Assembly (NCBI GenBank): GCA_013374015.1
Contig: BLLL01000006.1
Location: 24,464-88,463 of the forward strand
DNA: 64,000 bases
Direction of reading: 5' to 3'
From: Candidatus Desulfovibrio kirbyi
Lineage (GTDB): Bacteria > Desulfobacterota > Desulfovibrionia > Desulfovibrionales > Desulfovibrionaceae
The notes below the pieces were generated by a model. That model was given only the letters and a program-made list of their open reading frames with translations. It did not search any database and was not told the DNA's origin. This document shows positions 2,946 to 63,798 of this stretch, piece by piece. The translations under genes were made by a program, and so were the position numbers. Numbering within the stretch: position 1 is the stretch's first letter; each line of letters starts with the position of its first letter.

Positions 2946-3098
2946 CCACGCCTTGCGAGGTACAATTTTTTTGTGCGCTATTGCCAAAAGCACTCAGGTT
3001 ATCAGGGACGTGTAAAAAAAATTTAACCAAACGCTTCGGCTGTCTGAAATTTTTTATATAAAATACAAATAGATATACTTTATTCCCCAATGACTTTA

Positions 3099-3115
3099 CT
3101 GGCACGCACCTTGCA
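3099..3115 (+). promoter_or_regulatory. Sigma-54 (-24/-12) promoter
   Basis: CTGGCACGCACCTTGCA fits the consensus YTGGCACG-N4-TTGCW with exact GG/GC spacing; predicted +1 about 3126. Confidence 0.75.
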
Positions 3116-3125
3116 ATATTTAGTG

Positions 3126-3193
3126 TACCTTCCTTTCTCTATGTTGACAGCCTCCTCCAAAAAAACGGCCTGCCCCCCAGCAGGTCGTTTTTT
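3126..3193 (+). ncRNA. Candidate sigma-54-dependent small RNA (alternatively an attenuated speB leader)
   Basis: Starts about 12 nt after the -12 GC element and ends at a 9-bp hairpin plus T6. Unpaired 5' part is C/U-rich (ACCTTCCTTTCTCT, GCCTCCTCC), resembling anti-Shine-Dalgarno seeds. Confidence 0.45.
3165..3193 (+). terminator. Intrinsic terminator between argD and speB
   Basis: ACGGCCTGC-loop-GCAGGTCGT stem (one G-U pair) followed by TTTTTT. Confidence 0.75.
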
Positions 3194-3207
3194 ATGAAGC
3201 CAGGAAT

Positions 3208-4116
3208 TTGCCCGCGAAAAAAAATATGTTGCCCTTTCTCTTTTCAGAATACCCGCAAAGCACGCCGGAATCCGCAGGCTTTCACATTATCTCCGTCCCT
3301 CTGGAACGCAGCGTTTCCTACGGCGGCGGCACAGCCAAAGGCCCCGCCGCCATCCTTAAGGCGTCACAACAACTTGAAGCGTGGGAAAACGGCCACGCGC
3401 CAGGGGAATCAGGATTTTATACCGCCCCTGCCATAGACTGCGCAGGAACCCCTGAGGTTGTCCTTGACCGCGTCAGGGCGGCGGTTGCCTTTGCCCTTAC
3501 ATGCGGGGCAACACCCGTTGTCCTAGGAGGCGAACATAGTGTCACTCTGGGCGCGCTGCGGGCGTTTGGCGCTCTTTCAGACAATGCCTCTTCAGACAGC
3601 CTCCCCCTGGGCATTGTCCATATTGACGCACACGCGGATTTGCGTAAAATATATGAAGACGACCCATACTCACACGCCTGCGTCATGTACCGTATCGCGA
3701 ACGAGCTGAAACTGCCGCTTGCGCAATTTGCCGTGCGAGAACTGGCAAAAGAAGAAGCGGACGCGCGCAAACAGTTTTCTGTATTGCACTATGATGCCGA
3801 TATTCTTGCAAAAACAGGGATGCCGTTCCGCCCCTTACCGCCGGACTTTCCGCGCCGCCTGTACATCAGCTTTGATGTGGACGGACTGGATTCCTCGCTC
3901 ATGCCGGCAACGGGTACGCCGTCTCCCGGAGGGCTGTTCTGGCACGACGCCCTGCGGTTGCTTGCAAACTGTTGTGAAGAGCGGGAGGTGGCCGGCATGG
4001 ACATTGTAGAACTTGCGCCCATACCGGGCATGCACCACGCTGATTTTACCGCGGCAAAACTCACACACGCGCTCATGGTTTTGGCGCTCACGACAAAACG
4101 GAACTCGGTGCCATGA
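3208..4116 (+). CDS. speB: Agmatinase/arginase (ureohydrolase) family
   Basis: GGEHSVTLGALRAF, IVHIDAHADLR, SFDVDGLDSSLMPATGTPSPGG metal-binding motifs. Confidence 0.85.
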   Translation: MPAKKNMLPFLFSEYPQSTPESAGFHIISVPLERSVSYGGGTAKGPAAILKASQQLEAWENGHAPGESGFYTAPAIDCAGTPEVVLDRVRAAVAFALTCGATPVVLGGEHSVTLGALRAFGALSDNASSDSLPLGIVHIDAHADLRKIYEDDPYSHACVMYRIANELKLPLAQFAVRELAKEEADARKQFSVLHYDADILAKTGMPFRPLPPDFPRRLYISFDVDGLDSSLMPATGTPSPGGLFWHDALRLLANCCEEREVAGMDIVELAPIPGMHHADFTAAKLTHALMVLALTTKRNSVP

Positions 4117-5874: not shown

Positions 5875-5951
<77 letters not shown>

Positions 5952-6205: not shown

Positions 6206-7822
6206 TCAAGGTAAAGGCAGTAAGCCAAGCTCCTTGAGAAACGCATTGTGTTTTTTCGTAGCCGCCATGATGTTCTGTTCAATCGTCTCCAGTTCATCGT
6301 GAACCGCCTTAAGGTCAATTTCTTTTTCTTGCTCAGCCGTGCTAATATATCTGGAGATGTTCAAGTTATAGTCATTGGCGGCAATCTCTTCCATGGTTAC
6401 ACGCCGGGAGTAGCGTTCTTCTTCCTTGCGGCACTGGTATGTGGAAACAATCTTGTCAATATGTTCCGGCAACAGGCGATTTTGTCGTTTGGCTTTCTCG
6501 AAATGCTCGCTGGCATTGATGAACAGTACATCATCAGGCTTCTTGCATTTTTTCAGCACCAGAATGCAGACTGGAATGCCGGTGGAATAGAACAGGTTGG
6601 CAGGCAGGCCGATCACCGTGTCGATATGTCCATCTTCCAGCAGCTTGCGGCGGATGCGTTCCTCCGCACCGCCACGGAAGAGTACGCCATGGGGCAGGAT
6701 AATGGCCATGACGCCTTCCTGCTTCAGGTAGTGAAAGCCGTGCAGCAAAAAGGCGAAATCTGCTGCGGATTTGGGCGCAAGACCGTAATTTTTGAAACGC
6801 ACATCGTCGCCCATGGTCTCGCTGGGATCCCAACGGTAACTGAATGGCGGATTGGCTACCACGGCATCAAAATAGGGTTTCTTAGCGGGGTTGGTTTCCC
6901 GCAACATATCCCAATCGTTGGTCAACGTGTCACCGTGAAAAATCTCGAACTCGGAATCCTTTACCCCGTGCATCAACATGTTCATGCGCGCCAGATTATA
7001 GGTGGTAATATTTTTTTCCTGTCCGTAGATTTTGCCGATACCGCGCGATTTCATGCGGCTGTGCACATTCAGCAACAGTGATCCGGAACCGCAGGTAAAA
7101 TCAAACAGACTTTCCAAACGTTTTTTTTGACCAGTGGCCGGCTCCTGGCTATCCAGGGTAACAATAGCAGACAGAATACTGGAAATTTGTCGAGGCGTGT
7201 AGAACTCGCCAGCTTTTTTACCGGAACCGGCGGCAAACTGACCGATCAGGTACTCGTAAGCGCCACCCAGAGAATCACCGTTTGTGGAGAACCCTGCCAA
7301 TCCATCGACAATTTTAGTGATAATTTTACAGAGCATGGCATTGCGGTCTGTATAATTTTTCCCAAGTTTTTCAGAGTTCAGGTTAATTTCCGAGAACAAA
7401 CCCTGCAAGGTGCTTTCAAAGGATTCATTTTCAATGTACTTAAAGCTCTCCTGCAGGATTTCCAGCAGCCTGTCTTTATCTTTATGCGTACTGCGGGCCA
7501 TTTCCGCAATGCTGCCCCAGAGAAACTGCGGCTTGAGCACATAATGCACCTTGCGGCGCATCTGTTTTTCAAATGCGCCAATATCTTCCGCATTGTTTTC
7601 ATACCAGATTTGTAGTGGTATTATATGGGGCTGATCCTGCTTATCCGGGTAATCCTTCCCCAATTCTTTTTTTGCCGCTACTTCATAGCTGTTTGACAGA
7701 TAGCGCAGGAAGAGGAAGGAGAGCATATAATCGCGAAAATCGTCCGCGTTCATCGCGCCACGCAGTTGATCCGCAATACTCCAAAGCGTATTACCCAGTT
7801 GTTTTTGTTCTGGTTCAGTCAT
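6206..7822 (-). CDS. hsdM: Type I restriction-modification system methyltransferase subunit
   Basis: Homology to HsdM: AAGSGKKAGEFYTPRQISSIL, FDFTCGSGSLLLNV (motif I), VVANPPFSYRW (motif IV). Confidence 0.95.
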   Translation of the reverse strand: MTEPEQKQLGNTLWSIADQLRGAMNADDFRDYMLSFLFLRYLSNSYEVAAKKELGKDYPDKQDQPHIIPLQIWYENNAEDIGAFEKQMRRKVHYVLKPQFLWGSIAEMARSTHKDKDRLLEILQESFKYIENESFESTLQGLFSEINLNSEKLGKNYTDRNAMLCKIITKIVDGLAGFSTNGDSLGGAYEYLIGQFAAGSGKKAGEFYTPRQISSILSAIVTLDSQEPATGQKKRLESLFDFTCGSGSLLLNVHSRMKSRGIGKIYGQEKNITTYNLARMNMLMHGVKDSEFEIFHGDTLTNDWDMLRETNPAKKPYFDAVVANPPFSYRWDPSETMGDDVRFKNYGLAPKSAADFAFLLHGFHYLKQEGVMAIILPHGVLFRGGAEERIRRKLLEDGHIDTVIGLPANLFYSTGIPVCILVLKKCKKPDDVLFINASEHFEKAKRQNRLLPEHIDKIVSTYQCRKEEERYSRRVTMEEIAANDYNLNISRYISTAEQEKEIDLKAVHDELETIEQNIMAATKKHNAFLKELGLLPLP

Positions 7823-8270
7823 GACTGTTCCATTTTTCTTGTGGGGTCAGCTGTGATTTTTGGAAGTTTGAACTCATACCGCATTAAAAACTCAGCCAAA
7901 ATTTTCTTAAAAAGATCTTTTGTATCCGCATTAACATAACGAGAGAGGTAATCAGATATTTTCCCTTCCAAAGCGAGTTCTTTGAAGCCTGAAAAAAACG
8001 AGAAGCTGAATTAATTCGTAAAATGCGCGTAGCATCACCTTGCAAATCATTATCCCATGAAAATAGATCTTCAGTATAGGCATTAAAATAAAGAGTATCG
8101 CGCTGACCTTTTTGCTTCCCTCGATCTTTAAAGGCCATGGAAAGTCGTGTCTTGCCTGTGCCATTATAGGCATAGAGCAATACAAAATCATGATCATTCA
8201 GATCATCACGCAATCGCATCACCACGTTACTAAGTGTTTTGTACTGGCAAATTTTAGGCTGCTTGCTCAT
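7819..8270 (-). pseudogene. P-loop ATPase ORF inserted between hsdS and hsdM, frameshifted at a homopolymer and short
   Basis: Frame A: MSKQPKICQYKTLSNVVMRLRDDLNDHDFVLLYAYNGTGKTRLSMAFKD... (Walker A NGTGKT). After a T7 run (A7 at 7992-7998) a different frame continues as FFSGFKELALEGKISDYLSRYVNADTKDLFKKILAEFLMRYEFKLPKITADPTRKMEQS*, ending in an ATGA overlap with hsdM. Confidence 0.7.
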
Positions 8271-8974
8271 CCTCTTGCCTCCTCAAGAGAAGGGAAAAGC
8301 TGCTGCATCAGCCCCTTTTTATGGGATTTGAGCATGTCGAGTTTTTGGGTTTGCGCAGCGATCAGTGCATCAATGGAAGAAAGACAATCAGCGATTGTCT
8401 GTTGTTCCAATAAATCGTCTCTATCTTCATTGTGCGGAGGGGTTGGAATAGGTAACATAGCATATTCATTAGCGTTGATGCCTGGTTGACTACTGCGAGC
8501 AGAGGTAATAGCAACCCAATTCCAATATTGCCTTGTGTAAAAAAAATTGAACAGAAAAGTAGAATTAACCTCACTATGGTCTGGCTTTATTCGTATCAGA
8601 AAACCGGCAAATACTAATTTGCCATCTTCTTTTCTATACTTGTATGATTTTCCAACACTCCCAGTTCTAGCCAGAACAATATCACCTTCGCTCAGATAGT
8701 TTCCATCTGTTATATCAATATTAACAGAGGTTTTTTTATCACTAAGAAAATGTCCATCATCAGAAATATCAGTTATTCTTAGATATGTGGGTAAATTTTC
8801 TGAATATGGAACGGCTGGTGCATTCACTCCATAGTCAGGATGATTCAATAAGAGATCTCCCAATCGCCTAGTCTTCCACTCCGGCGCACTCCGAAATTCC
8901 GGAAAACGCAGTTTCGGCTTCAGTTCGCGTTTTGTCGCTTCGTTCATTTTCGTTGCATCCACCTTATTGCTCAT
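8267..8974 (-). CDS. hsdS: Type I R-M specificity subunit, half-size (one apparent target recognition domain)
   Basis: KPKLRFPEFRSAPEWKTRRLGDLL N-terminal TRD start and QQTIADCLSSIDALIAAQTQKLDMLKSHKKGLMQQLFP conserved C-terminal helix; only 235 aa. Confidence 0.9.
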   Translation of the reverse strand: MSNKVDATKMNEATKRELKPKLRFPEFRSAPEWKTRRLGDLLLNHPDYGVNAPAVPYSENLPTYLRITDISDDGHFLSDKKTSVNIDITDGNYLSEGDIVLARTGSVGKSYKYRKEDGKLVFAGFLIRIKPDHSEVNSTFLFNFFYTRQYWNWVAITSARSSQPGINANEYAMLPIPTPPHNEDRDDLLEQQTIADCLSSIDALIAAQTQKLDMLKSHKKGLMQQLFPSLEEARG

Positions 8975-11900
8975 ACGCGGCCAACCCTGAAATATCGTGC
9001 CCCTGGGCGCGTTTACGCAGCAAAGGCATCAAATCGTCCATCAGGGCAAGCTCCTTGTGCGTGCGTGCTTTCCAACTCAATTCCAAGGGAGCCAACAAGT
9101 CACTGAGTTGTTCTCCGTCAAAAATCATGCGCTGCATGATGTGATCCACAAAGACTTGTAGCGCGGCGCTTTCCAGTCCGTATTTTGCGGCAATACCGTC
9201 CAACTCCTTGGCATTCTTCTCGATTTTGAATTGCTCATAGCCCTGACGGATGGCTTTTTCGTTCAAGGCTTCACCTGTGTTCAGTATATTGATATAGGCG
9301 GCGATGTCCTCCCGTTCGTCCATAAACTTGGCATCGGACTGAATCAAACCGATGATCTGCTCACGGGTCATCGTCTGCTTGCCCGGCGCTTGCTGGGTAT
9401 AACGAGCTATAAGGTCCATAATGTAATCATAATCGATCACTGCGGAAGCAAAAAGTACAAACTCGAAATCCAGTTGCTGCACTGCCAAGCAGGCCGAACC
9501 ATCGTCTTTGTCCTGCTGGACCTTCAGGCGCTGGGCTGTTTCCAGATAAACGCCACGGAATGCTTGCAGCTGATCCGGTGGAATGATTTGTTTAATTGTC
9601 TCAGCGTAATCCGCCGTCAAATCGGTGTATTGATCAAGCTGGGTCTTGAGGCGTTGCACTTCTTTGAAAAGGTTGATGAACTGGCCGCGCGCTTCGTCGC
9701 CCTTGAGGTTAGGCACTTCCTCCGGGGCACAGGCCAGGCCCTGAGATTGCATGAAATAACACAGTTTTTTGATAGCTGTTTGCAATTTATTGATAACTTG
9801 CGGGGCGGCATCAACCAGCCAGATTTCCCTGGCGTGTTCGCCTTGTGCGCCAGAAAACATGGCAATAGCCTCATTGACCGCATCCTGCTGTTGGCGGAAG
9901 TCCATGATATTGCCATAGGGTTTGGTATCGTTCAGCACTCGATTAGTACGTGAGAATGCCTGAATCAGCCCATGGTATTTGAGGTTCTTATCCACATACA
10001 AGGTGTTCAGAAATTTTGAATCGAAGCCGGTGAGCAGCATTTCCACCACGATGACAATATCGATCTTTTGCGTGTGCGGCAGATCCTGATTGGGATATTG
10101 CTGATCTTTAATGCGTTTTTGCACATCCTGATAGTAAAGGTCAAATTCGTAGATGCTGTGATTGGTGTTATAACTGGCGTTGTAATCATCAATAATAACT
10201 TTGAGCGCAGCCTTCTTTTCTTCAGGCGCTTCTGTGTTATCAGCCTTTTCCTGCGGCAGGTCTTCCTGAATTTGCTGTACGTCCCTGTTGCTTTCGGCGG
10301 GCGGTGAGAACACGCAGGCGATGTTCAGCAGTTGAAAATCGCTGTTTGCTGCTCGTTTTTCCATTTGAACCGTTTTGAACAGCTCGTAATATTCAATAGC
10401 ATTGTTGATGGAGGCAGTTGCCAGAATTCCATTGAATTTACGGTTCGCGGTGGCGGCATCGTGTTTATCCAGCATGGCTTCAACAATGGCTTTTTTGGTC
10501 AGACTTTCCCCCAGCCTGAGCTTATGTGGGCCTTCAGGTTTATAATAATCGATATGAAAACGCAGAACGTTATTGTCCTCAATGGCGTTGGTTATAGTAT
10601 AGGAGTGCAACAACCGCTGGAAAATGTCTTCCGTGGTTTTGCACGAGGCTTGCTGGCCTTCGATCTGCTGAGAATTGGCGTTTTCCGCAAAAATAGGCGT
10701 ACCAGTGAAGCCAAAAAGCTGAGAATTGGGAAAAAACTCCTTTATGGCTTTATGGTTCTCGCCGAATTGGGAGCGATGGCATTCATCGAAGATGAAAACC
10801 ATGCGCTTATGGCGCAAGGGTTCCAGCCGTTTTTTATAATTACGCTTATTGCTGTCATCCAACGCCAAGCCGAGTTTCTGGATGGTGGAGACAATTACCT
10901 TGTCAGCGTAATCGGTTGAAAGCAGTCGTTGTACTAAGGTTTCGGTATTGGTATTCTCTTCGACGCAACCTTCCTGAAAGCGGTTGAATTCTTCCCGCGT
11001 CTGGCGGTCGAGATCCTTACGATCCACTATGAACAGGCATTTTTCAATGTCCGGGTTATCCTTGAGCAAGGTGGATGCCTTAAACGATGTGAGGGTTTTG
11101 CCACTGCCGGTAGTGTGCCAGATATAGCCGTTGCCGCAGTTTTGATGGATGCAGTCCATAATGGCCTTAACCGCATAAATTTGATACGGGCGCATCACCA
11201 TCAGCTTTTGTTCGCTGGCCACCAGCACCATATAGCGACTGATCATCTGGCCCAGTGTGCATTTGACCAAAAACTTTTCGGCGAAGTTGTCCAGATGGAT
11301 AATTTTCTTGTTGTCTTCCCCTGCAAACTGGTACAACGGCAGAAAGCGCTCGTCAGCGTTAAAGCTGAAATGACGGTTGTTATTGTTGGCGAAGTACCAG
11401 GTATCACTGTGATTGCTGACGATGAAAAGTTGAAGAAAACACAGGAGAGTTTTGCCATAGCCGTTGCCGGGATCATTTTTGTAATCAATGATTTGCTGCA
11501 TGGCCCGGCGCGGACTGAGGGGCAAAGCCTTCAGTTCAATCTGCACCACGGGCACGCCGTTGATGAGCAGGATCACATCGTACCGATGGTGACTGTTGTC
11601 AGTATTAATACGCAGTTGGTTGACCACTTCAAACCTGTTCTTGCACCAGTCCTTGATGTTGACTAAGGTGTAAAACAGCGGCGTGCCATCGTCTCGCTCG
11701 AAGCTCTGACGTTCTCGCAAGATGCGGGCTGCGGCAAAAACATCCGGGGTGATAATTTGTTCCAGCAATCTTGGAAACTCATTAGGCGTCAGCGTAACAC
11801 GGTTAAGAGTTTCGAATTTCTCACGGAAATTTTTTTCCAATGCGGTCCGGTCACGGATATCCGGTCTATAGCTGTATTTAAGTTCGGACAGCTTTTTGAC

Positions 11901-11981
11901 CAAATCTTGTTCGATTTCTTGTTCTTTCATGAGCTGTTTGATCCCGCTGTGAGCGAAAAATTTATACGGGTTCAGACGCAA
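8964..11981 (-). CDS. hsdR: Type I restriction endonuclease subunit R
   Basis: YDVILLINGVPVVQIELK nuclease motif, WHTTGSGKTLTSFKAS Walker A, FIFDECHRSQFGE (DECH), FGFTGTP; 1005 aa. Confidence 0.95.
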   Translation of the reverse strand: MRLNPYKFFAHSGIKQLMKEQEIEQDLVKKLSELKYSYRPDIRDRTALEKNFREKFETLNRVTLTPNEFPRLLEQIITPDVFAAARILRERQSFERDDGTPLFYTLVNIKDWCKNRFEVVNQLRINTDNSHHRYDVILLINGVPVVQIELKALPLSPRRAMQQIIDYKNDPGNGYGKTLLCFLQLFIVSNHSDTWYFANNNNRHFSFNADERFLPLYQFAGEDNKKIIHLDNFAEKFLVKCTLGQMISRYMVLVASEQKLMVMRPYQIYAVKAIMDCIHQNCGNGYIWHTTGSGKTLTSFKASTLLKDNPDIEKCLFIVDRKDLDRQTREEFNRFQEGCVEENTNTETLVQRLLSTDYADKVIVSTIQKLGLALDDSNKRNYKKRLEPLRHKRMVFIFDECHRSQFGENHKAIKEFFPNSQLFGFTGTPIFAENANSQQIEGQQASCKTTEDIFQRLLHSYTITNAIEDNNVLRFHIDYYKPEGPHKLRLGESLTKKAIVEAMLDKHDAATANRKFNGILATASINNAIEYYELFKTVQMEKRAANSDFQLLNIACVFSPPAESNRDVQQIQEDLPQEKADNTEAPEEKKAALKVIIDDYNASYNTNHSIYEFDLYYQDVQKRIKDQQYPNQDLPHTQKIDIVIVVEMLLTGFDSKFLNTLYVDKNLKYHGLIQAFSRTNRVLNDTKPYGNIMDFRQQQDAVNEAIAMFSGAQGEHAREIWLVDAAPQVINKLQTAIKKLCYFMQSQGLACAPEEVPNLKGDEARGQFINLFKEVQRLKTQLDQYTDLTADYAETIKQIIPPDQLQAFRGVYLETAQRLKVQQDKDDGSACLAVQQLDFEFVLFASAVIDYDYIMDLIARYTQQAPGKQTMTREQIIGLIQSDAKFMDEREDIAAYINILNTGEALNEKAIRQGYEQFKIEKNAKELDGIAAKYGLESAALQVFVDHIMQRMIFDGEQLSDLLAPLELSWKARTHKELALMDDLMPLLRKRAQGHDISGLAAYEQ

Positions 11982-37641: not shown

Positions 37642-39066
37642 TCAAAAATGCTCCTTGCGTCTGGACGATGGCTGAATATTGAGCGCCGTGCGGTATTTCG
37701 CCACAGTACGCCTGGCGATCTGGACCTGCAGAGCGTCTTTGAGCATATCGCCGATACGTTCGTCGCTCAAGGGAGCCTTGGGGTCTTCATCAGAAATATA
37801 TTTTTTTATTAAGGCCTTGACGCTTTCTGAACCAAGCTGTGTGCCGTTGTCCAATTCCAACCCGCTGTTGAAAAAAAATTTCAATTCAAAAATACCGTGG
37901 GGCGTTGCCATATATTTGTTGGTGGTAATACGGCTGACTGTTGATTCGTGCATGTCTATGTCGTCGGCAATATCTTTAAGAATGAGCGGCATAAGTTTGG
38001 TAATACCCTCGTCAAAAAAAGCCTTTTGCTGACGGACAATGCTTTCGGCAACTTTATAGAGTGTGCGATTGCGCTGGTGCATGGCCTTGATAAGCCATGA
38101 GGCCGAGCGTCTTTTCTCCGCACAGTATTCCCTGTCCTGCTCAGAGGCGTCCTTGGTGTTCATTTTGCAAGAATCGGACAGTCGCAATTGTGGCAGCGAA
38201 TCGTCATTCAACAGAATAATAAACTCGCCGTCAACATTGTATACAAAAATATCCGGACTGACAAATGTTGGTTCACCGCCGCCGAAACTCGCACCGGGCA
38301 GCGGTTCAAGGTTTTGGATAATATCCATATACTCCTTGAGTTCCTCCATTGTGAAATTAAATTTACGCAATAAGGGTTTGTAACGCTTTGCTTCCATATC
38401 TTCAAGATGTGACTGGATAAGCTCAACCAGTATGCTGTCTCTGTCATAATGCAGATTCTTCACTTGAATCAAAAGACATTCACTGGCGTTGCGCGCTGCC
38501 ACTCCCACAGGGTCAAACCGCTGCACCCGATCAAGAACACTGAGCGTTTCAGCAGGCGTTGCCCGGCACATTTCGGCAATCTCCTCCACTGTCGCGCTCA
38601 GATATCCCGAAGACGCAAGATTGCCGATAATAACTTCGCCAATCGCCTGCTGGGTCTCAGTGAGCGTTGACAGGCGCAACTGCCAGAGCAGGTGTCCTTC
38701 CAGAGTGGGCTTTGCGGTATACCGCGCTTCAAGGGAGGAAATTTCTTCAAGAGCTTCAAACTCACGGGATTGCGAAAGTCTGGGGGTGCTGGCGAATTCA
38801 CCGAGATAGTCTTCCCAGTCCGCATTGCTCGTCAGCTCCGTTCCGTAGGCGTCATCATCCTGGCTTTGTTTGCGCTCATCTTCCATCTCCAAGGCTTTGT
38901 CCTCATAATCCGCCTCTTCAAGAAAAGGGTTTTCCAAAAGTTCCTGCTGCACGGTTTCCAAAAGCTCAATGCGTGAAAGTTGTAGAAGTTTGATGGCCTG
39001 CTGCAACTGCGGCGTCATTATCAGCTGCTGCGCAAGTTTTAATTGCTGTCGGAGTTCCAGTGCCAT
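37642..39066 (-). CDS. rpoN: RNA polymerase sigma-54 factor
   Basis: MALELRQQLKLAQQLIMTPQLQQAIKLLQLSRIELLETVQQELLENPFLEE; DIDMHESTVSRITTNKYMATPHGIFELKFFFNSG; ARRTVAKYRTALNIQPSSRRKE (RpoN box). Confidence 0.97.
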   Translation of the reverse strand: MALELRQQLKLAQQLIMTPQLQQAIKLLQLSRIELLETVQQELLENPFLEEADYEDKALEMEDERKQSQDDDAYGTELTSNADWEDYLGEFASTPRLSQSREFEALEEISSLEARYTAKPTLEGHLLWQLRLSTLTETQQAIGEVIIGNLASSGYLSATVEEIAEMCRATPAETLSVLDRVQRFDPVGVAARNASECLLIQVKNLHYDRDSILVELIQSHLEDMEAKRYKPLLRKFNFTMEELKEYMDIIQNLEPLPGASFGGGEPTFVSPDIFVYNVDGEFIILLNDDSLPQLRLSDSCKMNTKDASEQDREYCAEKRRSASWLIKAMHQRNRTLYKVAESIVRQQKAFFDEGITKLMPLILKDIADDIDMHESTVSRITTNKYMATPHGIFELKFFFNSGLELDNGTQLGSESVKALIKKYISDEDPKAPLSDERIGDMLKDALQVQIARRTVAKYRTALNIQPSSRRKEHF

Positions 39067-56864: not shown

Positions 56865-56940
<76 letters not shown>

Positions 56941-57357: not shown

Positions 57358-60300
57358 ATGGGCAGTCATATTGCTGATTTCATCCAGCGCTGGAAAGCGT
57401 CCGGTGGTTCAGAGCAAGCTAATTCCCAGCTTTTTCTGGCGGAATTGTGTAATGCATTGGCATTGCCCTGCCCCGAGCCCTCCAAGCCCGTCAACGAAAA
57501 AAATATCTATTCCTTTGAGCGCAAGGTATATGTGCCACGCGGCGATGGCACGAATGAACTAAAACGCTTGGATCTATATCGTAAGGGCTGTTTTGTGCTG
57601 GAATCCAAGCAGGGGCAGGACAAAGCCGCTCCGCTTTCTTTGCCCGGCCTGACCGCCTCCAGCGCTGTCAAAAGAGGCACCCGCCAGTGGGAAGACTCCA
57701 TGCAGCGGGCCAAACGACAGGCGGAAAACTACATCCGTAGCCTGCCAGCCGATGAAGGCCGTCCGCCCTTCCTGATTGTGGCCGATGTGGGTTTCTGCTT
57801 TGACATCTACGCGGAATTTTCCCGTAGCGGCGGCGTCTATCTGCATTTTCCAGATGCCCGCACTCATCGGATCAGGTTGGACGATCTGGAAAAGCCCGAG
57901 ATTCAGTCAATGTTCCGGAGCATCTGGCATGATCCCCTGTCTCTTGACCCTTCGCGCCGCTCCGCCCGCGTCACCGAGGAAGTGGCCGTGCATCTGGCGG
58001 AACTGGCCCGCCTCCTAGAGACGGACGGCCATAGTCCCGAAAAAGTTTCGCAGTTCCTCATGCGCTGCATCTTCACCATGTTCGCCGAGGACGTGAGCCT
58101 GATCCCCGCCAACAGTTTCACGGATATGTTGCAAAAGGCTGCTATGGAGTCGGGCCTGTACGAGCATTTCCTTCGGGATTTGTGGACAGCCATGAACAAC
58201 GGCACTGTTTCCGTGGCTCTGGGCCGCAAGCTCCTGCGCTTTAATGGCAATATTTTCGCCAACCCGGAGGTTTTGCCGCTAACCAAAGCCCAGATCAGCA
58301 TTTTGCTGGAAGCGGCCAAGGCGGATTGGCGGGAGGTGGAACCGACCATTTTCGGCACCCTGCTGGAACGAGCCCTTAACCCCAAAGAACGGCACAAGCT
58401 GGGAGCGCATTACACACCCCGCGCCTACGTGGAGCGTCTGGTCATCCCAACCGTCATGCAACCCTTGCGTAAGGAATGGGACGACGTGCAGGCGGCGGCA
58501 AGCCTTTTGTTCAGCCAGGGCAAGACGAAAGAGGCCGAAAAAACCATTGCCGACTTTCACAAGCGGTTATTAGCAATTCGCATCCTTGACCCGGCTTGCG
58601 GCTCCGGCAATTTCCTCTATGTGACGTTGGAACACATGAAGCGCCTGGAAGGCGAAGTGCTGCAAACCTTGGCTACTTACGGCGAGCTGCAGGAAACTCT
58701 TTTGCAGGTTGACCCGCATCAGTTTTTGGGTCTTGAAATCAACCCCCGCGCGGCGCATATCGCGGAAATGGTTTTGTGGATCGGCTACTTGCAATGGCAT
58801 TTCCGCACCCACGGCAACGTCAGCCCGCCGGAGCCGGTGATCAGGAAATTCGAGAATATTCAATGCCGGGACGCGCTCATTGACTGGAAAAGCAGAAAGT
58901 ACGCGACTGATAAGAACGGCAGACCCATAACCCGCTGGGACGGCGAAACCTGGAAGACCGATCCGGCCACCGGGCGGCACGTGCCGGACGAAGCCGCCAC
59001 AACAGTGGATATGGTATATGAGGGGGTGGTGGTAACGCAATGGCCGAAAGCGGATTTTATTGTGGGCAATCCTCCGTTCGCCAGAGGGAAAACCAGAAAA
59101 AAAGATTTGGGATATGGTTACTTTAACGCCATAAGCAAAGCTTACTCCGAATTGGCTAAATCTTGTGATTTTGTCATGTACTGGTGGCACAAGGCTGCAG
59201 AACTGGTCAGGGAGGGCAAAGCAAGACAGTTCGGCTTCATCACTACCAACAGCATTGCTATGGTTTTCAACCGCCGGCTGGTTTCCCCGCACTTGGAAGA
59301 TAAGAAAAAGCCGTTGCATCTAGCTTTTGCCGTACCTGATCATCCTTGGGTGGATGCGGTGGATGGGGCGGCCGTGCGTATCGCTATGACCGTTGGGGCA
59401 AAAGGCGCGAAAAAAGGCGTTCTGGCCTCTGTTACGGAAGAACGGGAGACTGAAGGCCGAGAATGTTTTGTCGCCTTGCGAGAAAGCGAGGGAATAATTC
59501 ATGCCGATCTGCGGCAAGGCACGGATATTACCGGGGTTTGTCCGCTGAAAGCCAATGCGGGACTTACCGGGCAAGGCATGAAACTGCATGGGTCTGGCTT
59601 CATCGTAACCCCGGAAGAAGCAACACTTTTAGGCTTAGGGCGTATTCCAGGGCTGGAACGGCATATCCGGCCCTACCGCAATGGACGTGACTTGGCGGAC
59701 AGGGCACGCAACGTCATGGTGATTGATCTGTTCGGACTGACGGCGCAAGAGGTCAGAGATAAGTACCCGGAGGTCTATCAGTGGGTATATACGCGGGTGA
59801 AGCCGGAACGGAATCAAAACAACGAAGAATACATCCGCGTCAACTGGTGGCTCTTTGGTGGTAAAAATACAAAATTACGCAGTGCCCTTGCCGGTCTGCC
59901 GCATTATATCGCCACAGTGCGCGTGGCAAAACACCATTTTTTCGTGTTTCTGGATGGGAGGATTATTCCGGACAGCGCCCTTGTTGCCGTTGCATCTTCT
60001 GACCCCTTTTTTTTGGGCGTACTCTCCAGCCGGATTCATGTGTGCTGGGCGCTGTCCGCGAGTGGGCGACTGGGATACGGCAACGATCCCTACTACAATA
60101 ACACGCTTTGCCTCGACCCCTTCCCCTTTCCCGATGCCACGCCGGAACAACAAACCCGTATCCGCGACTTGGGCAAAAAACTGGACACCCACCGCAAGGC
60201 GCGGCAGGAGCTTCATCTTGATTTGACCATGACCGGCATGTACAACGCGCTGCAAGCCCTGCGTGAAGGCCGCGCACTCACGGCCAAAGAAAAGACCGCC

Positions 60301-60795
60301 CATGAACAGGGCATTGTGGCCGTGTTGCGTGAACTGCACGACGAACTGGACGCAGCTGTGGCTGATGCTTACGGCTGGCACGCTGATTTGTCGGATGAAG
60401 ACATTCTGGCCCGCCTCGTCGCCCTCAACGCTGAACGGGCGGAAGAAGAAAAACAAGGAAAAATCCGTTGGCTGCGCCCGGAATACCAGACAAAATCCAA
60501 AGCCGAGCGGCAGACAATACAGATAAAACTGGATCTCGCCCCACCCGCTGAACCTGTTGCCAAGGGCAAGAAGAGCAAGACCGCCAAAGCCGCGCCGGAA
60601 GCCAAGATCGCTTGGCCGTCCGCACTTCTGGAACAAACCCAGGCCGTGCGTGGTGTGGTGAAAGCCTTGCAAGACGTCGGAATAGCTATTGCGCTGGAGG
60701 CTGTGGCCGAGTGCTTTACCCGCGCCCCCCGCGCCAGAGTGGAAGAAATTTTGCGTGTGTTGGAGACGTTGGGGTTTATAGCCATAAATAAGTAA
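57358..60795 (+). CDS. Large class I SAM-dependent DNA methyltransferase, Type IIG/IIL (MmeI-like) with N-terminal nuclease-like domain
   Basis: ELKRLDLYRKGCFVLESKQGQ (D...ExK-like), LGAHYTPRAYVERLVIPTVM, ILDPACGSGNFLYVTLEHMKRLE (motif I), FIVGNPPFARGK (motif IV), TRD-like C-terminus; 1145 aa. Confidence 0.88.
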   Translation: MGSHIADFIQRWKASGGSEQANSQLFLAELCNALALPCPEPSKPVNEKNIYSFERKVYVPRGDGTNELKRLDLYRKGCFVLESKQGQDKAAPLSLPGLTASSAVKRGTRQWEDSMQRAKRQAENYIRSLPADEGRPPFLIVADVGFCFDIYAEFSRSGGVYLHFPDARTHRIRLDDLEKPEIQSMFRSIWHDPLSLDPSRRSARVTEEVAVHLAELARLLETDGHSPEKVSQFLMRCIFTMFAEDVSLIPANSFTDMLQKAAMESGLYEHFLRDLWTAMNNGTVSVALGRKLLRFNGNIFANPEVLPLTKAQISILLEAAKADWREVEPTIFGTLLERALNPKERHKLGAHYTPRAYVERLVIPTVMQPLRKEWDDVQAAASLLFSQGKTKEAEKTIADFHKRLLAIRILDPACGSGNFLYVTLEHMKRLEGEVLQTLATYGELQETLLQVDPHQFLGLEINPRAAHIAEMVLWIGYLQWHFRTHGNVSPPEPVIRKFENIQCRDALIDWKSRKYATDKNGRPITRWDGETWKTDPATGRHVPDEAATTVDMVYEGVVVTQWPKADFIVGNPPFARGKTRKKDLGYGYFNAISKAYSELAKSCDFVMYWWHKAAELVREGKARQFGFITTNSIAMVFNRRLVSPHLEDKKKPLHLAFAVPDHPWVDAVDGAAVRIAMTVGAKGAKKGVLASVTEERETEGRECFVALRESEGIIHADLRQGTDITGVCPLKANAGLTGQGMKLHGSGFIVTPEEATLLGLGRIPGLERHIRPYRNGRDLADRARNVMVIDLFGLTAQEVRDKYPEVYQWVYTRVKPERNQNNEEYIRVNWWLFGGKNTKLRSALAGLPHYIATVRVAKHHFFVFLDGRIIPDSALVAVASSDPFFLGVLSSRIHVCWALSASGRLGYGNDPYYNNTLCLDPFPFPDATPEQQTRIRDLGKKLDTHRKARQELHLDLTMTGMYNALQALREGRALTAKEKTAHEQGIVAVLRELHDELDAAVADAYGWHADLSDEDILARLVALNAERAEEEKQGKIRWLRPEYQTKSKAERQTIQIKLDLAPPAEPVAKGKKSKTAKAAPEAKIAWPSALLEQTQAVRGVVKALQDVGIAIALEAVAECFTRAPRARVEEILRVLETLGFIAINK

Positions 60796-60805
60796 GTATG
60801 AAACA

Positions 60806-62026
60806 ATGAATACCGGGGCAAACATGCAACAACCTGAAATATCACCCACTGTTGAACCGAGTTTCCGCAAGCCTGGAACACAGGATTGGGAATCTTTACA
60901 AACGCCAATTACCACAGAGGGTACGGAAGACAAAACTGCAGAAGATGTCCACAAGGTAGAACAGGCCAATGAAAACTTAAAAGCTACACTTTTGCAATCA
61001 TTGCAAATGCAACACCTTATTGTTTTAGCTGGGTCAGGTTGTTCGTGTTATGCAGGCGGTCCTAGGATGAGTGACCTCTGGAATATGGTGGTCGGGAAAA
61101 CTCCATCTGATGATGCAGAAAAAGCTGCTTCCATAGTTCACTATAACTTAGAAGATAGCAATATAGAAAAATTTTTATCGCAAGTTGAGGCTTTTCTCTC
61201 TTTTGTATCGGATTCGGATGTCGTTATAAAAAAATTCTTGGACGACGCTCAACAGAAAATCCTTCATGCATGTTCTGACTTTCTTACCGATGACAAACTG
61301 GACTCTCACAAAACCCTTCTACACCGGCTCTCACGTCGCCGGACCCGTGACCAGCGTCTTCGAATATTCACCACAAATTACGATCTTTGCTTTGAACGCG
61401 CCGCCGCTCATATCGGTTGTGTCGCTATTGATGGATTCTCTTTCACGACTCCGCGCAGATATGACCCGCGTCATTTTGACTATGATATCATTCGCCGCCC
61501 GCGTTCAGGCGACGACAACGGAAACTACCTTGAGGGCGTCTTCCTGCTCTATAAATTGCATGGCTCGGTAAATTGGGAAAAAACGGCGAATGGCATCGTC
61601 GAAAAAAATCCAGACCCGCAAAAAGAATGTTTGATTTATCCTGCTAACGGTAAATATCAACAAAGTTACAACCAGCCTTTTATTGAATCCATTTCTCAAT
61701 ATCTGACGGCAATCCGTGAGCCGAGTACTTGTCTATTGGTTATAGGGTTCGGCTTTAAAGATGATCATCTTTCGGAACCAATTTTGTCCGCTGTGCGTTC
61801 CAATCCGCACTTGCGTCTTATTGTTGTTGCCCCCTCCCTTAAAGAGAGCGCGAACGGTTGCCAAAATCTTTATATGGAAAAGCTCGTTGAGTTATCTACA
61901 AAAGGCTTTGATGTATGGTTCATCAACGAATTATTTGAGAACTTTGTGAATCGGGTTCCTGATTTGAAATCTCTTACCCCAGCGGAACGTTTAGCTAAAG
62001 CTATCAGTGGAGTTATGCAGCAATAA
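60806..62026 (+). CDS. SIR2-domain protein (defence-type)
   Basis: HLIVLAGSGCSCYAGGPRMSDLW, IFTTNYDLCFERAAAHIG, LYKLHGSVNW, LLVIGFGFKDDHLSEPIL. Confidence 0.88.
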   Translation: MNTGANMQQPEISPTVEPSFRKPGTQDWESLQTPITTEGTEDKTAEDVHKVEQANENLKATLLQSLQMQHLIVLAGSGCSCYAGGPRMSDLWNMVVGKTPSDDAEKAASIVHYNLEDSNIEKFLSQVEAFLSFVSDSDVVIKKFLDDAQQKILHACSDFLTDDKLDSHKTLLHRLSRRRTRDQRLRIFTTNYDLCFERAAAHIGCVAIDGFSFTTPRRYDPRHFDYDIIRRPRSGDDNGNYLEGVFLLYKLHGSVNWEKTANGIVEKNPDPQKECLIYPANGKYQQSYNQPFIESISQYLTAIREPSTCLLVIGFGFKDDHLSEPILSAVRSNPHLRLIVVAPSLKESANGCQNLYMEKLVELSTKGFDVWFINELFENFVNRVPDLKSLTPAERLAKAISGVMQQ

Positions 62027-63798
62027 TGAAAACTTTGGAAATCAATAAAGAGTTCCCACGCGGACTTCTCCGCCCGGAATTGTTTCTAGGCGTGGCATCG
62101 TCGATTTCCGCGCGAAGTATCGGCGTGAACCTAAGTGAAGCGGGACGTCCCAGCGGTTCTCACTATTCCGGCAGTCGCTATGGACGTGGCGAAGTCGGGG
62201 AGTTTGTTTTGGTGGAAGGTCAACAATGCCTTCTTTTGGGACGCATTTCCGAAGTCCGCTTACGAGAGCAAGAACGCCGCTCAATAAAGCCAGGTTTAGC
62301 TGGCGGCAAGAATCTTGACGCAATTGGACAAATCCAACTTTTGGGAAGTGTTGCGCTGGACGAACTTCGCGTGACACCAGGCGTAGAAACTTATCCTCGT
62401 CTTGGCGACCGTATTTATGCCGCTCCGCACCGATTTATCTCGCTTCTGCCTCTGCTTATGGAGAAAAAAGAGACTGAGAGTCAAGTCTCCCTTGACATTG
62501 GTTTCGTTGATTCCGTCAGCGATAGCAAAGTTTCTGTGAAACCTGAAAAATTGTTTGGTCGTCACTGTGCAATTCTTGGCTCAACAGGTGGCGGCAAAAG
62601 TTGGACGACAGCGCGTATTGTTGAAGAGTGTATACAACACAAATCAAAAATTATTCTGCTTGACGCTACAGGAGAGTACAGGGATTTCCACGGGCAGTAT
62701 ATAGAAAATTGCCATCTTGGTTCTCCAGTGAGAACAGCAAATGTTTCTCAGGTATGTTCTTTACCGCCGACAAGTTTTATTGAGTCTGATTTCATCGCAT
62801 TGTTTGAGCCGTCAGGAAAAGTGCAAGGACCAAAATTAAAATCTGCAATTGAAAGTTTACGTCTTGCAAAGATATGTACAGATAATTCAATTGAAAATGG
62901 AGGCATTGTTATTGAAAATGGAGTCCTTGTTAAGGAAGGCAAAGAGAAACTACCAATACAAAGGGCACTCGTAAAATATGCCGAAACGATACAAGACCCA
63001 AGTGCTCCATTTGATGTTAAATTGCTACCAAGACAAATTGTTGCTGAATGTGTGAATGATTATGGTGATCAGAAATGGAAAGGAAAAAACGAACAAGAAA
63101 TTGGGTGGTGTGCAGCATTAATTGCACGTATTAACGCCGTATTTAAATCGCATGTCCTCAAGTGTGTATTCTCTGCTAACGGAATGCCACCTATTACACA
63201 AAAATTTGATAGTTTTTTGGCATATGACAAACGCCTTTTTCGCATTTGTATGAGTGGTATTGGATACGAATTTAAAGCCAGAGAAATTATTGCTAACGTC
63301 ATCGGCAGGTATTTGTTGAACAGGGCAAGAAACGGAGACTTTCATGAAAAACCTACAATAGTTATTGTGGATGAAGCCCATAATTTTCTTGGTCGGCATA
63401 TTGGGGCAGAAGACTACATTGCCAAACTTGACGCTTTTGAAATTATTGCCAAAGAAGGTAGAAAATACGGGCTGAGTATCTGCTTGGCGACACAGAGGCC
63501 ACGGGACATTACCGAAGGCGTTCTAAGCCAGATGGGCACCATGATTGTCCACCGCCTCACCAATGACAAAGACAGGGAAGTTGTTGAACGCGCTTGTGGC
63601 GAAATAGACAAGGCGGCATCTGCCTTTCTGCCCAACCTTCGCCCAGGACAAGCCGCCATTATTGGAGTTGACTTTCCCATTCCCCTGACAGTTCAAATAG
63701 AAAAGCCAAATACGCGGCCTAAATCCGATGGGCCTGACTATCAAACATACTGGAAGTTACAGAAAGCAGCTGTTCAGCGAACTCTCCGTTCTCATTGA
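62026..63798 (+). CDS. HerA-like FtsK/HerA-superfamily ATPase
   Basis: HCAILGSTGGGKSWTTARIVEE (Walker A), TIVIVDEAHNFLG (Walker B), GLSICLATQRPRDITEGVLSQMGTMIVHRLTNDKDREVVERA; start overlaps the SIR2 stop. Confidence 0.92.
   Translation: MKTLEINKEFPRGLLRPELFLGVASSISARSIGVNLSEAGRPSGSHYSGSRYGRGEVGEFVLVEGQQCLLLGRISEVRLREQERRSIKPGLAGGKNLDAIGQIQLLGSVALDELRVTPGVETYPRLGDRIYAAPHRFISLLPLLMEKKETESQVSLDIGFVDSVSDSKVSVKPEKLFGRHCAILGSTGGGKSWTTARIVEECIQHKSKIILLDATGEYRDFHGQYIENCHLGSPVRTANVSQVCSLPPTSFIESDFIALFEPSGKVQGPKLKSAIESLRLAKICTDNSIENGGIVIENGVLVKEGKEKLPIQRALVKYAETIQDPSAPFDVKLLPRQIVAECVNDYGDQKWKGKNEQEIGWCAALIARINAVFKSHVLKCVFSANGMPPITQKFDSFLAYDKRLFRICMSGIGYEFKAREIIANVIGRYLLNRARNGDFHEKPTIVIVDEAHNFLGRHIGAEDYIAKLDAFEIIAKEGRKYGLSICLATQRPRDITEGVLSQMGTMIVHRLTNDKDREVVERACGEIDKAASAFLPNLRPGQAAIIGVDFPIPLTVQIEKPNTRPKSDGPDYQTYWKLQKAAVQRTLRSH

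Follow-up and report, generated by a model that had tools for sequence, protein, structure and literature searches.

The window analysed here, a stretch of 64,000 nucleotides from Candidatus Desulfovibrio kirbyi, carries argD and a speB-like agmatinase gene, and between these two genes a sigma-54-type promoter, a predicted small RNA (sRNA) and an intrinsic terminator lie in close succession, preceded by a pair of palindromes. The features of the locus, together with the gene for the sigma factor that the promoter requires, are as follows.

1743-2945: argD, the upstream neighbour of the sRNA unit.
2960-2976: distal AT-rich palindrome GTACAATTTTTTTGTGC, a presumed activator site, at the equivalent place in relatives.
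3012-3027: proximal palindrome, a presumed activator site spaced about 52 bp from its distal counterpart; zero-mismatch GTWMAANNTTTTTWAC on the minus strand.
3099-3116, plus strand: sigma-54 -24/-12 promoter (sequence match; kept in relatives).
3126-3193, plus strand: sRNA of about 68 nt, with a predicted start near 3126 and its end in a T-run (folding, alignment, covariance model).
3127-3138, plus strand: putative seed at the 5' end, ACCTTCCTTTCT, identical in 24 of 24 aligned loci and antisense to the ribosome-binding sites (RBSs) of porin genes.
3150-3158, plus strand: second C/U tract GCCTCCTCC, less conserved, matching the RBS of a second porin set in some genomes.
3160-3193, plus strand: intrinsic terminator hairpin plus T6 (folding; compensatory changes in relatives).
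3226-4116, plus strand: speB-like agmatinase gene, the downstream neighbour, with its start corrected (PF00491; TIGR01230 just below the cut-off).
37642-39066, minus strand: rpoN (TIGR02395, PF04552).

The first-pass annotation had described a textbook -24/-12 element at this locus, and an exact match to TGGCACG-N4-TTGCA (TGGCACGCACCTTGCA) was indeed located on the plus strand at 3100-3115, which is also the single occurrence in the window of the exact sigma-54 consensus TGGCACGNNNNTTGCA; the looser form TGGCAYNNNNNWTGCW has 8 matches across the genome of 1.61 Mb, this one among them. The -24 GG and -12 GC are correctly spaced both in the window and in its relatives. As the C of the -12 element lies at 3114, transcription would be expected to begin near 3126, and the covariance model match in the window spans 3125-3194. 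The 3126-3193 segment folds into one hairpin on its 3' side, leaving the 5' half unpaired (-19.4 kcal/mol, versus -8.5 ± 2.3 kcal/mol for shuffled sequences; z -4.7), with the T6 at 3188-3193, in agreement with the terminator proposed earlier. The two C/U-rich tracts and the presence of rpoN in the same window were likewise confirmed, but the speB start had been misplaced at an ATG 15 nt after the terminator: homologues place it at ATG 3226 (MLPFLFSEYP), 32 nt past the T-run, and the ATG at 3194 beside the terminator is out of frame with speB. A short peptide beginning at ATG 3140 was considered and rejected, being absent in relatives, which have TTTTGCTGACAG at that place. Elsewhere in the window, restriction-modification-like genes at 6206-11981 and 57358-63798 lie downstream of tRNA genes (5875-5948 and 56865-56937, respectively), and these two segments may be mobile islands.

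BLASTN searches with the region retrieved the block from 24 other genomes of the genus, the aligned part being the promoter, RNA and terminator together. At E<=0.01 an RNA covariance model found 58 of the 79 genomes of the genus, with doubt attaching to some of the weakest matches, and a second model built on the promoter and RNA start matched 55 of the 79; by both models the sRNA was not detectable in part of one clade placed in the genus. Measured per position, information was high in both promoter cores (-24 and -12), was down to 0-1 bit from the -12 element to the start, and rose abruptly at the RNA, whose first 13 letters carried 1.6-2.0 bits each. Positions from about -11 to -3 drift in relatives, and ACCTTCCTTTCT, from the predicted +1 onwards, is nearly invariant, with alterations in a few loci outside the 24 aligned, such as that of G102. 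In the terminator, six of the ten base pairs showed double compensation among relatives. This drop in conservation and its restart at +1, where the start of a 68-nt RNA had been predicted earlier, along with the compensated terminator, points to selection acting on an RNA with its start there.

The unit usually lies 5' of speB in Desulfovibrio. A rival reading makes it a sigma-54-driven 5' leader or attenuator of speB, the hairpin of which would stop transcripts unless conditional read-through occurred. The distance from the RNA to the speB start is roughly 20-55 nt in 27 of 44 Desulfovibrio loci, a gap so short that little room is left for a promoter of its own. The linkage is nonetheless loose, since the gap varies within the genus between about 20 and 1561 nt, two genomes have genes lying in between, and no speB was seen in the regions fetched around the copies in other genera. 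No competing antiterminator fold accompanies the single hairpin, and an attenuator would leave the co-variation of the RNA 5' end with porin RBSs, described below, unexplained. We regard a leader function as quite unlikely; read-through into speB, the competing role named in the first-pass annotation, is unsupported as the main one, as copies of the unit exist with no speB close by, and may, given the 27 short gaps, take place as a by-product.

Multiple copies of the sRNA were found outside the genus Desulfovibrio. Nitratidesulfovibrio genomes carry two or three each, and tandem arrays were encountered in other genera, with three copies at each of L406, L407 and L408 and two at each of L405, L419 and L424, every tandem copy having its own promoter and hairpin. 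The other-genus copies counted here are those inspected in sequence, as any sigma-54 promoter scores with the promoter model and its weak matches in many genera were left out. In the copies inspected the promoter is preserved, the 5' end is similar, and the hairpin, mostly unrelated in sequence, is strong. By these comparisons the unit is a putative sRNA family in its own right that recurs across the Desulfovibrionaceae, separable from its neighbouring genes and equipped with its own promoter and terminator. The conservation of promoter and hairpin that the earlier reading called for, including in genomes lacking an adjacent speB, was thus found. No Rfam family matched the sRNA at either gathering or permissive thresholds.

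Those Desulfovibrio promoters with enough upstream sequence are preceded by an AT-rich palindrome close to GTWMAANNTTTTTWAC, whose usual position relative to the -24 element is about -80 or -90; these two positions differ by one helical turn from genome to genome. A second palindrome often lies about 52 bp farther upstream, and the palindromes are helically phased. At up to two mismatches the palindrome was present in 45 of 45 Desulfovibrio regions and in 22 of 29 regions from other genera, the latter being the sole out-of-sample count since the motif was derived from Desulfovibrio, versus fewer than one in shuffled sequences. The paired palindromes resemble activator sites. Just one further exact copy exists in the genome of the window, at 8537-8552 near restriction-modification genes; it was dismissed as a second site, no sigma-54 promoter being seen beside it.

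Among the small genomes compared, an NtrC-type response regulator (G000:C3:21988-23364) was the sole recognisable activator common to that of the window, G102 and G003. Its gene is present in 77 of the 79 genus genomes and the protein has a GSFTGA loop. In both its loop and its universality it fits the published description of DVU3220, the presumed nitrogen regulator of D. vulgaris (PMC3333781, PMC4641369), and we consider it a candidate for the activator of the sRNA. Counting against this candidate, its gene was not found in the assembly of G009 (98% complete, 1.4 Mb), in which the sRNA, promoter and palindromes are kept. In G009 the one clear sigma-54 activator is some 870 aa long. A search for palindromes near activator genes gave nothing convincing, and an activator gene adjoined the sRNA at none of 20 loci in other genera, distant matches occurring at two of the 20.

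Targets were sought by pattern and by protein family. The first-pass annotation had suggested that the C/U tracts pair with RBSs and had proposed a target search with them as seeds; a pattern search for the seed reverse complement before start codons in 16 genomes yielded an outer-membrane homotrimeric porin (NF033939; DESULF_POR1) in eight Desulfovibrio genomes. One form of these porin RBSs, GCAAAAGAAAGGAAGGTTAACC-ATG, is perfectly antisense to the 5' end of the sRNA over 17 nt. Porin genes were then gathered by protein family for pairing tests, in which perfect complements with the RBS reached 20 nt in G035, 18 nt in G029 and 17 nt in G002 and G026, versus at most 9 nt for control RBSs. The median duplex energy was -20.2 kcal/mol for 101 porins versus -13.7 kcal/mol for 50 controls, and in 23 of 32 genomes the best porin energy surpassed that of shuffled sRNAs (p<=0.05). 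The second C/U tract matched RBSs of a second porin set, through GGAGGCTG in G028 and G086 and GGAGAACTGTCA in G065. In the genome of the window, which at 1.6 Mb is reduced and whose RNA diverges after CTTTCT, the longest match among the three porins examined, out of four, is 9 nt, with a duplex energy no better than that of shuffles (p 0.49), and porin pairing also failed in G003, G010 and G252.

Several further matches were recorded. The sRNA model, by sequence alone, matched the antisense strand of the porin RBS region at L079 (G035:C63) and L078 (G082:C119), the former match being the 20-nt perfect target site. A NifD-like nitrogenase gene carries AAGGAAGGT, with 9 nt complementary to the seed, just before its start codon at L213, L230, L232 and L235 (Desulfovibrio G026, G062, G013 and G017, respectively), and is a possible second target. 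The recurrent AAGGAAGGTTCGGAAATG was discarded as a target, as it lies inside a coding region and not in an RBS.

The 5' ends of the sRNA are different in other genera. Among porins collected there by protein family, perfect complements of 12-17 nt to the porin RBS were found in six of these genera: 17 nt in G271, G268 and G177, 15 nt in G218, 14 nt in G198 and G233, 13 nt in G174 and G169, and 12 nt in G160, G211 and G264. The paired sRNA and porin sequences are CCTTCTTTCTTTTGC with GCAAAAGAAAGAAGG in G218, CTTCCTTCTTTTGCAAA with TTTGCAAAAGAAGGAAG in G268 and CCTTCCTTTCTTTGCTG with CAGCAAAGAAAGGAAGG in G271. Even within one genus, the sRNA has TTCTTTTGCTAAA in G174 versus TTCTTTTGCTGA in G160, each with a match in its own porin. 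When sRNAs were swapped among 20 representatives, the summed perfect complement was 247 observed versus 185 ± 9 swapped, all 20,000 permutations falling below the observed value (p=5e-5, an indicative figure because related genomes are not independent); within Desulfovibrio alone, the swap test was mixed. A conserved and unpaired seed complementary to the porin RBS, co-varying with it, is a property seen across genera, but not when the genome of the window is taken by itself, and it is this complementarity and co-variation that lend substance to the proposed pairing of the C/U tracts with RBSs.

Two other explanations of the porin matches were weighed. The RNA could act in trans as a broad anti-Shine-Dalgarno agent for which porins are one target among many, as the occurrence of AAGGAAGGT before the start codons of the NifD-like gene in four genomes and of an rplK-like gene in two might suggest. 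The porin matches, however, overrun any Shine-Dalgarno core by 5-10 nt and show co-variation between genera, whereas control RBSs do not exceed 9 nt, and so broad action appears unlikely. Alternatively, the region may be an element of the DNA only, comprising the speB promoter region and a protein-binding site, with the porin match a convergence on purine-rich RBSs. Shine-Dalgarno sequences are purine-rich, such that some pairing with a C/U-rich RNA is to be expected of them all, and panB RBSs reach -25.7 kcal/mol once; yet conservation that starts at +1 and takes in a terminator with compensatory changes, perfect matches of 15-20 nt and the swap test together make a purely DNA-level role very improbable.

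Searches for Hfq gave no match in any of 10 genomes, whilst the control genomes gave matches (5). The encoded Hfq on which the class of Hfq-dependent sRNAs relies was thus not found in those 10 genomes, a result that fits the long contiguous pairing between sRNA and porin.

The comparative evidence supports the original reading of a sigma-54-dependent sRNA, and we consider it probable that the locus encodes a free trans-acting sRNA, driven by sigma-54 and an activator, whose 5' end blocks porin translation without Hfq. According to this model, a sigma-54 activator, for which we infer the NtrC-type regulator as a candidate, would bind the two upstream palindromes some 52 bp apart and drive sigma-54 RNA polymerase from the -24/-12 element, and transcription would end at the hairpin to give the RNA of about 68 nt, the production of which is likewise predicted. 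The unpaired 5' end (ACCUUCCUUUCU...) would then pair with the RBS of outer-membrane homotrimeric porin mRNAs and block their translation, Hfq not being needed; repression rather than activation is the presumed effect, judging from the position over the Shine-Dalgarno sequence. We lean, with rather less assurance, towards a family-wide regulon in which a conserved sigma-54 activator, perhaps NtrC-type, controls one to three Hfq-less sRNA copies whose 5' end co-evolves with the major-porin RBS, and which may form an activator-gated switch of outer-membrane permeability in sulfate reducers.

Hardly any charting has been done of sRNAs in sulfate reducers, and the literature consulted yielded nothing on this RNA or on sRNA control of porins in Desulfovibrio. 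The family described here, a predicted one, has a promoter, activator-like sites, numerous members and a target for which co-variation speaks, and it is found in genomes without detected Hfq. It may offer a way into sRNA regulation in Hfq-less bacteria and into the control of the major Desulfovibrio porin; the major porin of D. vulgaris, DVU0799, is suspected to be essential (PMC5686591).

Four sigma-54 ncRNAs have been published in D. vulgaris (Dv_sRNA2 and others), with no function assigned, and two of those in strain Hildenborough lie downstream of their own activator genes (PMC3333781, PMC4641369). As in the present family, a sigma-54 promoter with activator sites drives an ncRNA in the same bacterial family; unlike them, the sRNA described here has no adjoining activator gene and a porin target is proposed for it. 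One of the four may be the local member of this family. The 48 pattern matches included no Hildenborough record.

The Qrr sRNAs of Vibrio have a sigma-54 promoter, exist in several copies and act with Hfq on quorum-sensing targets. The present family resembles them in its sigma-54 promoter, its presumed NtrC-type activator and its several copies in some genera, but differs in that no sequence relation, Rfam match or Hfq was found and its predicted targets are porins. MicF, MicA and RybB are porin-repressing sRNAs, and VrrA acts on the mRNA of an outer-membrane protein (PMC2628432). By the tests made, the present sRNA belongs neither to the Qrr family nor to those of MicF or VrrA. What it would have in common with the porin-repressing sRNAs is that it pairs with mRNAs of outer-membrane proteins close to their start, from which a translational block is predicted here. 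The differences lie in sigma-54 control, as opposed to sigma-E or other control, in Hfq, which was not found, in an unrelated porin family (NF033939) and in a longer contiguous pairing.
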